Assembly: GCA_016742275.1 (NCBI GenBank)
Contig: JACVCD010000013.1
Span: 1 to 64,000 of the forward strand
Source: Gemmatimonadaceae bacterium
GTDB lineage: Bacteria > Gemmatimonadota > Gemmatimonadetes > Gemmatimonadales > Gemmatimonadaceae
DNA length: 64,000 nucleotides
Direction of reading: 5' to 3'
The first letter of the stretch is position 1. Every line of letters begins with the position of its first letter. Of this stretch, positions 42,928 to 48,002 are shown one piece after another. Under the pieces are notes generated by a model. The model saw nothing but the letters and a program-made list of their open reading frames with translations. It searched no databases and was not told the origin of the DNA. A program made the translations under genes and the position numbers.

Positions 42928-44558
42928 GTGAAGTCGCTGCCCTCCTGGCCGCGTTTCACGAGGCCACCGGGAGACAGGCGGCACTCTGGGAACGACGCGA
43001 AGCTCAACCTCTCCCCGTGTTGCTCGGCGCAACCGGTGAGGATTTTGCAGCGCGCACCGAAACCGGTGTGGGTGCCTGGGATGTTGCGAGCTGGGCACGT
43101 GGCCAGGATCTGCAGGCACAGCTGGTGCACACCGGTGAGAGTGTGGGCTGGCTCATCGTGGAGCCGGGACCTGATCCCGATGCCGACCAGTTCCTGGGCC
43201 GCCTTGTGCCACTGTTGCGTCGCCTCGCGCATGAGCGTGATGGGGCGACGCGTGAACTCGTCGAGCGCTACGAGGAGATCAATCTTCTCTACGCCATCGG
43301 TGAACTGCTTGGGGGCACGACCTCAGTCGAGAGCGTTGCCGACACCCTGCTTGGCGAACTCGCGGCCACGGTTGGTGCGCGTCGTGCCGTGTTTCTGCAA
43401 ACGAATCGCAGCACGCAGACTCTGGTGCCCATTGCCACGCTTGGGCTGGGGGATGTGAATTACGAGCCCGTGCCATTCGATCGGGTGGAGCACATTGCGG
43501 TGCGAGCCTATCGCTCAGGTGGTGCGTGCACAGTGGATGGACCGGGAGCGCCCGACGCAGACCCGGTACTTTCGCTGCGCAATGCGCCACTCATGGCGGT
43601 GGCCATTACACGTCCCAGTACGGGTCTTGGCATTACCGGAACCTTTGCGGTGCCATCGCGCCGCGGTGCTGATGGTGTTGCGGTGCCACTTGGTGTGCTG
43701 GTGCTTGGTGGTCGTGAAGGTGGCAATCCGTTCTCTGCTGGCGATCGAAAGCTCGTGGCAGCGGTAAGCACGCAGATTGGTACCGCGATGCACAACGCCA
43801 CGCTGGTGCGCGCTGCGGTCGAGCGTCAGCAGTTCAAGCGTGAGATGCAGCTCGCGCATGAGCTGCAGCTCAAGTTGTTGCCGAGTCCGCAGGTGGTGCA
43901 GCCGGAAGCTCGTGCTGCCGCGCGTGTTGTTCCGGCCGAGAGTGTGGGTGGTGACTTCTTCCTGCTCGCGAGACTTGATCGCGATCGGACGGGTGTACTG
44001 ATCGGCGATGTATCCGGGCATGGCTATCAGTCGGCGCTCGTCATGGCGCTCGCACTGAGCGCTGCAGCCATTCACGTGCAAGCGGCGTTTGATCCGAGCA
44101 TCGCAGTGGAAGCAGTGCAGCGCTCATTGCGTGACGAACTCATGTCCACCGAAATGTCGATCTCGATGTGCTATGCGGTGATCGACAGTCGTGCGGGAGA
44201 ACTGCGCTACGCCAATGCCGGGCACCCTCACGCATTTCGTGTGACGGCTGCCGGTGAAGTCACGCGTCTTGGCGCTGTTGCACCGCCGATCGGATTCAGT
44301 GAAGACCCGGTGGAGGAATGTGTGGTGCGCTGGCGTACTGGCGACCGGCTCGTGTTCTTCACGGATGGTGTAGTCGACGCACGTGATGCGAGCGACAAGC
44401 GCCTGGGTGAAAGTGCGGTGTTGCAGATGCTCGCCAATGCATCGCCTGACGCCACACCGGATGACGTGCTCGAGGAGATCTTCGCGCAGGCCAAGAATCA
44501 TGTTGGGCGCGCACCGCTGCTGGATGACTGGACAGTTGTGGTGGTGGACAGACCATGA
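42924..44558 (+). CDS. GAF-domain SpoIIE/RsbU-type PP2C phosphatase
   Basis: This 544-residue protein is the likely input of the switch. An N-terminal unknown region is followed by a GAF-like sensor (about residues 125-300: LLYAIGELLGGTTSVESVADTLL and on), a short coiled linker and a PP2C core: RVVPAESVGGDFF, IGDVSGHGYQSALVM, LRYANAGHPHAF, LVFFTDGVVDARD and DDWTVVVV. The Asp residues are the metal ligands. It should dephosphorylate the STAS protein in response to an unknown ligand. There are no membrane segments, so it acts in the cytoplasm. Confidence 0.9.
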   Translation: MSEVAALLAAFHEATGRQAALWERREAQPLPVLLGATGEDFAARTETGVGAWDVASWARGQDLQAQLVHTGESVGWLIVEPGPDPDADQFLGRLVPLLRRLAHERDGATRELVERYEEINLLYAIGELLGGTTSVESVADTLLGELAATVGARRAVFLQTNRSTQTLVPIATLGLGDVNYEPVPFDRVEHIAVRAYRSGGACTVDGPGAPDADPVLSLRNAPLMAVAITRPSTGLGITGTFAVPSRRGADGVAVPLGVLVLGGREGGNPFSAGDRKLVAAVSTQIGTAMHNATLVRAAVERQQFKREMQLAHELQLKLLPSPQVVQPEARAAARVVPAESVGGDFFLLARLDRDRTGVLIGDVSGHGYQSALVMALALSAAAIHVQAAFDPSIAVEAVQRSLRDELMSTEMSISMCYAVIDSRAGELRYANAGHPHAFRVTAAGEVTRLGAVAPPIGFSEDPVEECVVRWRTGDRLVFFTDGVVDARDASDKRLGESAVLQMLANASPDATPDDVLEEIFAQAKNHVGRAPLLDDWTVVVVDRP

Positions 44559-45418
44559 GTCGTGGCCGCGATCAGGGTAACGCACGCGCGTTGCCGCCCG
44601 CCCGCAAGCGTTTTGGTCAGCACTTTCTGCGTGATACGCGTGTGCTTGCCGATATCGCCGATGCATTGGGCGATGTGCGCGAACGCACGATTGTTGAAAT
44701 CGGACCAGGGCGTGGTGCGTTAACTGACCTGCTGGTTGAGCGAGCGGGTCGGGTGGTAGCTGTTGAAGTGGATCGCGATCTGGTGCAGCACTTGCGCGCA
44801 CGCTACGCCGGGCGAAGCAACGTGGAGATCATCGAGGCCGATGTTCTCACGCAGTCGCTCGCGCAGTTGGCGGGCGGTCCGTATGTGTTGGCTGGCAACG
44901 TTCCGTACTACATCACCACACCGATCATCTTTCACGCACTCGAATTGCCGCGCCCGGACGTGGCGGTGTATCTCGTGCAGAAAGAAGTCGCCGAACGCAT
45001 GGCTGCGCCTCCAGGCGACAAGACCTACGGCGCGCTGAGCGTGAATTTGCAATCGGTGGTGGATGTGTCGATGCTGCGACGTGTACCACCAAGCGCGTTC
45101 AATCCGCCGCCAGCCGTTGACAGTGCCGTCGTGCGCGTGACACCGCGTGCAGCGGCAGAAATTGAGCCTGAACTCGAAAAGCGCTTTCGTCGCTTTGTGC
45201 TCGCAGCCTTTGGGCTTCGTCGCAAGCAATTGGTGCGTGTCATTCGCACCATCGCGCATCTCGATGCGGAACGCGCGCACGCGCTCGTTGCATCGTGCGG
45301 CCTTTCACCGGAAGCGCGACCGGAGACCCTATCTCCAGCGCAGTTCGCCGTATTGGTTCGCGCACTCGGCAATGTGCCGTTGACTCAGGCACCGTCCGAG
45401 GAGCAGGGCGAAGCGTAG
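44555..45418 (+). CDS. rsmA: 16S rRNA (adenine-1518/1519) dimethyltransferase RsmA/KsgA
   Basis: RsmA dimethylates A1518 and A1519 in the 30S 3' end. RKRFGQHFLRDTRVL, the SAM loop VEIGPGRGALTDLL, NVPYYITTPI (the NLPY-type catalytic motif, with NVPY here) and NPPPAVDSAVVRVTP are all in place. The length of 287 residues is normal. Its ATG overlaps the phosphatase stop, so it is coupled to the signalling trio. It is convergent with rex, leaving 14 bases between stops. Confidence 0.94.
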   Translation: MSRGRDQGNARALPPARKRFGQHFLRDTRVLADIADALGDVRERTIVEIGPGRGALTDLLVERAGRVVAVEVDRDLVQHLRARYAGRSNVEIIEADVLTQSLAQLAGGPYVLAGNVPYYITTPIIFHALELPRPDVAVYLVQKEVAERMAAPPGDKTYGALSVNLQSVVDVSMLRRVPPSAFNPPPAVDSAVVRVTPRAAAEIEPELEKRFRRFVLAAFGLRRKQLVRVIRTIAHLDAERAHALVASCGLSPEARPETLSPAQFAVLVRALGNVPLTQAPSEEQGEA

Positions 45419-45432
45419 ACTGCGTAGGCCTC

Positions 45433-46077
45433 TTAGGCCGCGCCCTGACTGAAGTCGTTGCCGTTGGTCAGAGCAAACGACAGGCCTTCGAGCTCCATCG
45501 CCATGTTCACCGACTTGAGCGATACATGCGGTGGCACTGTGATCTGTGCCGGAGCGAAGTTGAGGATGGCGCGAATGCCGGACTCGACCAGCATGTCCAC
45601 CACGGCCTGCGCGTTCTCCGACGGAATGGCGAGCACGGCGATAGACGCTTCTTCACGGGCCACATCGCGCGGCAACTCATCCATGGCGCGCACAATGGCC
45701 TCGCCCCACGGCTGACCCACTTTGCGCGCATCGTTGTCGTAAACGCCGACAATGGTGAAGCCGCGCTGACGGAACCCACGATAGTTGGCGAGCGCTGCAC
45801 CGATCTTGCCGGCGCCAACAATGATGACCTTCCACTCGCGCTCGAGTCCGAGGATCTCGCGCAGATGTGTAGTGAGTTCGCGGACGGGATAGCCGAGTCC
45901 GCGTTTGCCGAAGGAGCCGAAGAACGAAAGGTCCTTCCGGACCTGGGCGGGCGTGGTACCGCACAGGTGGGCCAGCTCGTCGCTGGAGGCAGTCTGTTGT
46001 CCGCGCGTATCGAGGTCCTCCAGATACCGGAGGTACATCGACAGTCGGCGGACGGTTGAGTCGGCGATTCGCTTCAC
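45433..46077 (-). CDS. rex: Redox-sensing transcriptional repressor Rex
   Basis: Rex senses the NADH/NAD ratio and releases DNA when NADH is high. The winged helix is KRIADSTVRRLSMYLRYLEDLDTRG, then ELAHLCGTTPAQVRKDLSFFGSFGKRGLGYPV, and the Rossmann domain has VIIVGAGKIGAALANY. GTG at 46077 gives 214 residues and the standard family N-terminus; further upstream the frame runs through a Rex operator and non-homologous sequence. It is encoded opposite to its neighbours and probably represses itself. Confidence 0.94.
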   Translation of the reverse strand: MKRIADSTVRRLSMYLRYLEDLDTRGQQTASSDELAHLCGTTPAQVRKDLSFFGSFGKRGLGYPVRELTTHLREILGLEREWKVIIVGAGKIGAALANYRGFRQRGFTIVGVYDNDARKVGQPWGEAIVRAMDELPRDVAREEASIAVLAIPSENAQAVVDMLVESGIRAILNFAPAQITVPPHVSLKSVNMAMELEGLSFALTNGNDFSQGAA

Positions 46078-46088
46078 GATGACTTGGC

Positions 46089-46106
46089 TTGTGAAATACT
46101 TCACAA
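46089..46106 (-). promoter_or_regulatory. Rex operator over the rex transcription start
   Basis: TTGTGAAATACTTCACAA matches the consensus Rex site TTGTGAA-N4-TTCACAA without mismatch. On the minus strand TAACTT (46106-46111) is a likely -10, so the operator covers the start site and early leader 12 bases before the rex GTG. Confidence 0.8.
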
Positions 46107-46155
46107 AGTTAGGCCAATCGGCCGCGCAATTCCAGCCGTCAGAGTATCTTGCGGG

Positions 46156-47130
46156 GTGTTCGGTACCTCCGCCGCCCCTCGCCCAACTACGCTGTCTGCC
46201 CGAGCCGCCCACCGTCTGGCGGCGGGCCCGCTCGATGCCGTGACCCTCATGCGCGACGTCTGCCAGGTGGATCGCCTGCAGGGTGAAGCCGCTGAGCGCA
46301 TGGCGCAGGCCCTGTTGGGCAGCCATCCGGAGTTTGTACGACTACCGAGCGGGCATTGGGCGCTCGCAGCATCCGAGGCCGCCGGATCGCACGGACTCCT
46401 GATCAAAGAGGCGCCCGAGTCGATGGCAGGGTCAATGCCGCTCCCGGCGACCGTGACCCGCCACCGCCCGCCTGCCGCCCCCAGTCTGGATGACATCACC
46501 TGGGCCGTGGTCGACGTGGAAACAACGGGCACACGCGCCGGTTCTGGCGACCGCATCACGGAAATCGCGATCGCCACAGTGCGTGGTGGTGATGTGGTGG
46601 ACGTGTACAGCCAGTTGGTGAATCCGGAACGCCCGATTCCGCCCTATATCACGTCGCTTACGCACATCACGTGGGAGATGGTGCGTGATCAGCCCGTGTT
46701 TCGTCAGATCGCCGAGCCGGTGCTCGAGCGCCTGCAGGGAGCGGTGTTTGTGGCACACAACGCCGGATTCGATTGGCGATTTGTAAGTGAGGAGTTGCGG
46801 CGCGCCACGGGGCGTGAGCTGCACGGACCAAGGCTCTGCACCGTGCGTATGGCACGCGCTCTCGTTCCCATGTTGTCGCGCCGTTCGCTGGATCATGTCA
46901 CCCATTATTTCGGCATCGAGATCGAGGCGCGTCATCGTGCGGCCGGTGATGCCGTCGCGACCGCGCATGCGTTGCGCCGCATGTTGACGATCGCCAAAGA
47001 TGAAGGGCTATCCGACTGGGATGCGCTCCGGCGTCGTGTCGAAGGACCCAAGACCGTTCGTCGCAGTACCGCATCCGATCGTCGTCGTCGTGCATTCCCG
47101 CTTCCTGCTTCCGAGGATCATTCGGCGTGA
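46156..47130 (+). CDS. DEDDh 3'-5' exonuclease (PolC/epsilon-like)
   Basis: This 324-residue protein has a C-terminal exonuclease domain: WAVVDVETTGTRAG (first Asp and Glu), SLTHITWEMV, FVAHNAGFDWRFV and HRAAGDAVATAHAL (His and last Asp). It may act as a proofreading-like or repair exonuclease. About 110 N-terminal residues before the domain are Ala/Leu-rich and unrecognised; they do not look like a helicase or GIY-YIG partner. The start is GTG 46156, with TATCTT 5 bases before it; an ATG at 46084 would sit on the Rex operator. Confidence 0.85.
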   Translation: MFGTSAAPRPTTLSARAAHRLAAGPLDAVTLMRDVCQVDRLQGEAAERMAQALLGSHPEFVRLPSGHWALAASEAAGSHGLLIKEAPESMAGSMPLPATVTRHRPPAAPSLDDITWAVVDVETTGTRAGSGDRITEIAIATVRGGDVVDVYSQLVNPERPIPPYITSLTHITWEMVRDQPVFRQIAEPVLERLQGAVFVAHNAGFDWRFVSEELRRATGRELHGPRLCTVRMARALVPMLSRRSLDHVTHYFGIEIEARHRAAGDAVATAHALRRMLTIAKDEGLSDWDALRRRVEGPKTVRRSTASDRRRRAFPLPASEDHSA

Positions 47131-48002
47131 GCTTTCCGCAGCCGTTGCTCGAAACACGTCAGGTTGGACGTCTCCGCGTGCACGCCATTCAAGCCGGTGG
47201 CCAGCAACTCGATGGAGGCGCGATGTTCGGTGTCGTGCCCAAGACGCTCTGGTCGCGTCGTCTCGGCGCAGACGACAAGAATCGCATCCCCCTGGGCATG
47301 CGTTGTTTGCTCATCGAGCACGATGATGGTCTGGTGCTGCTCGACGCGGGAACGGGCAACAAGGAGACGCCCAAGTTTCACGAGATCTACGGCATCGAGA
47401 ATGGTGGCGAGCAGGATCGCACGGCCCTCGAAGACGGAATTCGGGCGGCCGGGCACAGTGTCAACGACGTCAAGCTGCTGATCAACACGCACCTGCATTT
47501 TGATCACGCGGGCGGCAACACGTATCGTTCGCCGAGTGGGGAAGTGCTGCCCACGTTTCCGAACGCGCGGTACCTCGTGCAGCAGGGAGAGCTCGATTAC
47601 GCGGAGAACGCCAACGAGCGCACCACGGCCAGTTACTTCCCGCCCAACTGGGCGCCGGTGATGGCCGCCGGCCAGTTCGAATTCCTGCGGGGGCCGCGGG
47701 AAATTGTGCCGGGCATCTCCGTGCAGCTCACACCGGGCCATACCCCGTATCATCAGAGTGTCCTGATCCGGTCGGGTGGCGAGACCCTGTGTTTTCTGGG
47801 CGACCTGATCCCCACGGCGCACCACCTCCCGCTGCCCTGGATCATGGGGTATGACGTGGAGCCGCTGGTCACGCTCGAGTCCAAGCGGGCGCTGCTGGCC
47901 CAGGCGCTCAAGGAAGACTGGCAGCTCTGCTTTGAACACGATGCCCATACGGCCTTTGGTCGTCTGGCCCATGATGGCAAGGCCTACCACCTGGCGGGCT
48001 AA
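47127..48002 (+). CDS. MBL-fold metallo-hydrolase
   Basis: This 291-residue metallo-beta-lactamase-fold protein has the metal motif NTHLHFDHAGGN, a second His in LTPGHTPYHQS, an Asp in FLGDLIPTAHHLPLPWIMGYD, and a final His in FEHDA. It resembles the hydrolase group with lactonase-like members, but the substrate is not predictable. There is no signal peptide. The GTG start overlaps the exonuclease stop. Confidence 0.85.
   Translation: MSFPQPLLETRQVGRLRVHAIQAGGQQLDGGAMFGVVPKTLWSRRLGADDKNRIPLGMRCLLIEHDDGLVLLDAGTGNKETPKFHEIYGIENGGEQDRTALEDGIRAAGHSVNDVKLLINTHLHFDHAGGNTYRSPSGEVLPTFPNARYLVQQGELDYAENANERTTASYFPPNWAPVMAAGQFEFLRGPREIVPGISVQLTPGHTPYHQSVLIRSGGETLCFLGDLIPTAHHLPLPWIMGYDVEPLVTLESKRALLAQALKEDWQLCFEHDAHTAFGRLAHDGKAYHLAG

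Follow-up and report, generated by a model that had tools for sequence, protein, structure and literature searches.

A predicted Rex operator before rex in a Gemmatimonadaceae bacterium and its recurrence upstream of respiratory and ATP-synthase genes

In Streptomyces avermitilis, the redox-sensing repressor Rex recognises the consensus TTGTGAANNNNTTCACAA and its binding to DNA is lowered by NADH; in the available part of that study, its targets include rex itself (within a rex-hem operon), nuo, atp, ndh2 and cydA1B1CD (PMC5355995). An operator of the same form, TTGTGAAW4TTCACAA, is described for Rex of Staphylococcus aureus, where the accessible sections place the repeat before anaerobically induced genes (PMC2883068). 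In Caldithrix abyssi, for which the same consensus TTGTGAANNNNTTCACAA is given, a predicted Rex site with two deviations lies 38 bases upstream of rex, ahead of a rex-hydrogenase operon, in an organism that also has alternative complex III and plastocyanin; the portion of that report available to us draws no link between alternative complex III and Rex (PMC5317091).

The locus described here lies in a stretch of 64,000 nucleotides from a Gemmatimonadaceae bacterium (the window), and the Rex autoregulation it suggests is a known kind of system. It shares with S. avermitilis both the consensus and the targets rex, nuo, atp and ndh2, but differs from what is available of that description (PMC5355995) in having no cyd gene at the seven best sites of its own genome and a convergent ksgA in place of the hem genes after rex. 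In further contrast to S. avermitilis, atpI and atpA are here apart with a site each, and most sampled members of the family carry a site at alternative complex III and at a plastocyanin-like cupredoxin. Whereas the S. aureus repeat is associated with anaerobic induction, the sites found here precede respiratory and ATP-synthase genes. As in C. abyssi, the site stands before rex and alternative complex III and a plastocyanin-like protein occur, but the site has no deviations and what lies beyond rex is the convergent ksgA. Literature searches in a few wordings found no report on Rex in Gemmatimonadota or Gemmatimonas, and none joining a Rex regulon with a cupredoxin and NADH.

The palindrome in the window, TTGTGAAATACTTCACAA, shares every one of the 14 fixed positions of the Rex consensus, as a sequence-only reading of this DNA had claimed. 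It consists of two 7-base perfect inverted repeats around the 4-base centre ATAC, which is only half palindromic, so that 16 of the 18 positions pair and the word perfect is true of the Rex consensus, in which the centre is free, and not of all 18 bases. The gap between operator and the rex GTG (46077-46075, minus strand) is 11 bases, in line with the 12 stated in that reading, and on the opposite side 49 bases separate the operator from the predicted start codon of the exonuclease gene (GTG at 46156), which agrees with its placing of the divergent pair 50 bases further on. Judged from its sequence, the product of rex is a bona fide Rex: it scores above cut-off with five NCBIfam Rex models (four others matched below theirs), it has the architecture of an N-terminal DNA-binding domain (PF06971, residues 5-52) and a C-terminal Rossmann domain (PF02629, CoA_binding, residues 81-177), both above gathering score, and it shows full-length homology to the solved Rex structures 1xcb/3ikt (E 2.8e-49, residues 4-206). 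Its GxGxxG motif reads GAGKIG.

Table 1. Annotated and predicted features around the operator (window coordinates).
Feature	Position	Strand	Basis or remark
ksgA/rsmA, convergent neighbour, synteny anchor	44555..45418	+	TIGR00755 above cut-off
rex, redox-sensing transcriptional repressor, GTG start	45433..46077	-	NCBIfam, Pfam, solved Rex structures
Rex operator (predicted) TTGTGAAATACTTCACAA	46089..46106	.	0 mismatches to TTGTGAANNNNTTCACAA
Predicted rex -10 box TAACTT (TANNNT)	46106..46111	-	shares one base with operator
Predicted rex -35-like element CTGGAA	46130..46135	-	18 bases before -10
Possible exonuclease -10 TATCTT	46145..46150	+	sequence
DEDDh exonuclease-domain gene	46156..47130	+	PF00929
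Metallo-beta-lactamase-fold (MBL) YtnP-like hydrolase, downstream of exonuclease	47127..48002	+	PF00753 above cut-off; YtnP lactonase model below its cut-off

The boxes predicted for the rex promoter would place the transcription start at about 46099, within the operator, whose overlap with the predicted -10 box would put it at the promoter, where a Rex operator is expected; the earlier proposal that the palindrome covers the rex start thus fits the predicted geometry. This arrangement recurs in relatives. Of 47 aligned family rex upstreams, 44 have a TANNNT box beginning 4 or 5 bases ahead of the operator, and each of the remaining offsets examined (-40 to +3) has one in 0-2 of the 47; CTGG stands at -28/-29 from the operator in 22/47 regions. 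In the sample of named records described below, 62/76 rex upstreams share this TANNNT offset. The neighbouring ksgA runs in the opposite direction to rex in 28 of the 33 loci compared.

The 4.57 Mb genome to which the window belongs contains three perfect sites, before rex, before the type II NADH dehydrogenase gene ndh-2 (L001) and before a gene for a plastocyanin-like lipoprotein, a cupredoxin (L002), and no perfect match to a reversed control pattern. Three of the four one-mismatch sites precede nuoA-nuoB (L004), atpI (L006) and atpA (L007), so that six of the seven best sites stand before rex, ndh-2, the cupredoxin gene, nuoA, atpI or atpA. The fourth (C27:56004, L005) lies inside an ABC-permease-like open reading frame and is probably due to chance. 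Pfam matches above cut-off gave the names of NDH-2 (NDH2_C), the cupredoxin (Copper-bind), NuoA and AtpI, and TIGR00962 gave that of AtpA; with NCBIfam models, the cupredoxin and NDH-2 scored below cut-off, and nuoB and the L005 permease were identified by eye. The sequence-only reading had proposed searching the genome for the palindrome upstream of respiratory and fermentation genes: the respiratory half of that expectation holds, and the seven best sites include no evident fermentation target.

That reading had also made its case depend on the site recurring before rex in sister species, and this is widely so in the genomes surveyed. Rex matches were found in 54 of 59 family genomes and 50 upstream regions were read (30 + 20 loci), leaving out G007, G008 and G041, and also G012, whose match is too weak for Rex. 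Of these 50, 47 have a perfect site ahead of rex, as do three of three further loci from the window's genus. The exceptions, with rex but no upstream site, are G018 and two genomes of one genus, G044 and G017 (genus g18; L053, L054, L268, L270), in which the best site in the DNA around rex has 6 mismatches. Perfect sites still stand before actA in these two genomes (L306, L310), and their regulon seems to have shed its autoregulation. Among 24 loci from other families of the phylum, 17 sites are perfect, three have one mismatch, two have two, one has three and one has five, the last two loci carrying distant Rex proteins (32-34% identity). A sample of named records, defined as the best 80 Rex loci from GTDB records, gave 76 perfect sites and two with one mismatch in 78 usable loci, two of the 80 being too short upstream. 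Almost all titles of these 80 read Gemmatimonadetes, Gemmatimonadota, Gemmatimonadales, Gemmatimonadaceae or Gemmatimonas; the remaining ones are one Candidatus Kuenenia, one "bacterium" and one Roseisolibacter, which we take to be a member of the group. At the loci from other families and named records, the reversed control never came below 4 mismatches.

A survey of 150 genomes of the phylum, in which Rex was counted as present at a match of at least 88 bits (137 genomes) and as absent in 13 (12 without a match, and G012), relates the presence of the site to that of the gene. Perfect sites occur in 122/137 Rex-positive genomes versus 2/13 of the others, and, put the other way, no perfect site is found in 15/137 genomes with rex versus 11/13 without detected rex (Fisher p ~3.3e-8 for site against Rex presence, a value that overstates the evidence because the genomes are related). 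The rex-less genomes that keep sites are G095, with two, and G012, with one. G095 also has no ksgA match, which makes an assembly gap likely; the same lack in G025, a genome with no site, means that rex could be missing from that assembly too. In G025 no site was found upstream of nuoA, atpA or actA. G052 belongs to the genus of G025; there the exonuclease and MBL genes come immediately after ksgA, rex is absent, and no site was found upstream of actA, atpA or atpI. In G012 (L336), a transposase-like open reading frame, recognised by eye, and a low-complexity stretch follow ksgA in the expected place of rex, suggesting that rex was lost by insertion.

Beyond rex, 40 of at least 42 perfect sites in relatives were fetched, two from G055 (of the same genus as G030) being left out. 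They precede a multihaem cytochrome gene (21), a cupredoxin gene (13), ndh-2 (3) and clpX (3), the cytochrome and clpX groups being read by eye from translations, with one clpX start confirmed. The cytochrome at L110 resembles subunit A of alternative complex III (6btm, E 1e-40), with an ActB-like gene downstream; NCBIfam models stayed below cut-off for both, the cytochrome matching QrcA best and the ActB-like protein PhsA, then QrcB. Five targets were then surveyed in the 59 family genomes by reading 250 bases upstream for part of the matches; where 30 were sampled per target, they were those with the highest scores, which tilts the sample toward close relatives. Upstream of actA, 32/46 regions have a perfect site and 4/46 one with a single mismatch; for the cupredoxin gene the figures are 17/30 and 5/30, with 8/30 lacking a site. 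The atpA sites have one mismatch in 27/30 regions and are missing in 3/30, 25/30 atpI regions have a site with one mismatch or none, and 27/29 nuoA regions have one with one to three mismatches, one further locus being too short. The 10/46 regions with no site before actA come from three members of the genus to which the window belongs and from seven other genomes. The own-genus loci L301-L303 have no actA operator, in contrast to L112-L139 of other relatives, and two of these three genomes, G000 and G048, have a perfect site before ndh-2; since all three own-genus genomes examined lack the actA site, the regulon is not uniform.

Two further observations concern the reach of the motif. The perfect sites at clpX lie 61-111 bases upstream in three genomes of two genera (L077, L080, L085); one would not expect Rex to control this protease chaperone. 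In G072, of the same class (family f5, genus g61; L317-L334), there are 17 perfect TTGTGAAN4TTCACAA sites, most of its genus, which carries 5-17 perfect sites per genome, more than any other genus scanned. Their neighbours are mixed and some sites seemingly lie inside coding sequence, and no regulon was read from them; in this genus the regulon may have grown, or the motif may serve some other purpose.

The position of the operator relative to the putative promoter differs between targets but is kept within most of them. Measured from the operator, a -10-like box stands at +7 in 22/22 cupredoxin regions, at +6 in 23/27 atpA regions, at +22/+23 in 26/26 atpI regions, at -4/-5 in 56/73 rex regions and at -19/-20 in 16/27 nuoA regions. 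No fixed TANNNT was found at actA, where inspection by eye and weak counts suggest a promoter at about -48/-25. The operator is thus predicted from sequence to keep a target-specific distance to a -10-like box at five of six targets. With these offsets it would sit on the -10 box at the cupredoxin gene and atpA, act as the -35 element at atpI, cover the start at rex and lie downstream at nuoA and perhaps actA. Position 7 of the atpA sites is an off-consensus T in 27/27, in 23 of them the first base of TANNNT, and most atpI sites have C at position 4, within the putative -35.

That the palindrome is a chance occurrence without function might be argued from the shortness of the motif and from the sites with up to three mismatches, whose number across the genome is near background (78 forward versus 61 for the control). 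Within the window, the looser pattern TTGTGN6CACAA with up to two mismatches is likewise at chance level (26 found against 23.6 expected), and the weight therefore rests on the exact match. By chance, perfect sites would number 3.2e-5 in the 64 kb window; for the whole genome a base-composition model gives 0.0023 and a first-order Markov model 0.0066, both built from window composition, and with the conservation and the coherent set of targets this leaves chance a practically negligible explanation. A different regulator is the more substantial alternative. The consensus of CRP is TGTGA-N6-TCACA, the window site contains it, and the sequence thus fits both patterns, so that a regulator of the CRP/FNR family could be the one served. 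The atpA sites would suit CRP in that the outer pair never varies and the Rex-specific position 7 is always off-consensus, but the role of that T in the -10-like box would explain its conservation. The 27 nuoA sites point the other way, their outer positions 2/17, on which CRP should depend, differing in 45/54 cases and the Rex-specific inner positions 7/12 never, and loss of the site tracks loss of rex. At the 73 rex sites the outer and inner pairs are equally conserved, with 4 departures each, and do not discriminate. Both the target genes and the way in which sites are lost speak for Rex over CRP, which is very improbable as the regulator here.

The third alternative accepts the operator and assigns it, also or mainly, to the exonuclease/MBL pair, which the sequence-only reading had suggested might be affected. 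The operator does lie in the shared intergenic region, close to the exonuclease GTG, and in 6/6 same-genus loci examined the two genes point away from rex. The possible exonuclease -10, TATCTT, which by eye recurs in 4/5 other same-genus loci aligned, would put the start of that gene about 50 bases from the operator, which would then fall upstream of the -35 element. Moreover, among 33 loci with a perfect operator, 16 have the exonuclease gene and 12 the MBL gene within a flank of about 1.5 kb, so that the operator is kept where no pair is found in that flank, and the pair persists in G052 (L337) without rex or operator. This suggestion consequently loses its footing: Rex probably does not act on the divergent exonuclease gene, and control of the pair by the operator is unlikely.

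We put the probability that the palindrome is a Rex operator, part of an autoregulatory loop with an energy-gene regulon, at roughly 0.93. Binding of Rex to the site is probable on the sequence evidence, to which the joint disappearance of rex and sites in several lineages adds indirect support, and NADH-responsive autorepression of rex, as predicted by the sequence-only reading, is very probable, with good support from the comparison of genomes. In the proposed mechanism, Rex, NAD+-bound or free, would occupy the operator over the end of the -10 box and the predicted start and keep RNA polymerase off. When respiration is limited and NADH rises, NADH-bound Rex would release the DNA, and rex would be transcribed together with the energy genes sharing the operator, which in its own genome would be those for NDH-2, the plastocyanin-like carrier, complex I and the two ATP-synthase loci. 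Binding, repression and the response to NADH are taken over from the named protein family.

It is reasonably likely that in Gemmatimonadota Rex acts as a master switch of oxidative phosphorylation, with one operator family for complex I, NDH-2, the alternative complex III operon, its probable plastocyanin-like acceptor and two ATP-synthase loci. The register would be target-specific, at the -10 of the cupredoxin gene and atpA, at the -35 of atpI, at the start of rex and downstream at nuoA and probably actA, with the T7 of atpA and the C4 of most atpI sites kept for the promoter, and the operators would have gone in lineages that lost rex. Less expected than the rest is that Rex should also be predicted to control alternative complex III and its probable copper-protein partner. 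What began as a guess about a single site thereby becomes a regulon prediction that spans the family and, as far as rex is concerned, most of the phylum. If it is true, alternative complex III would be tied to the NADH/NAD+ ratio and the rex-less lineages would be natural cases in which the regulon fell apart; the sites in many relatives suggest one redox switch over much of the cell's energy chain.
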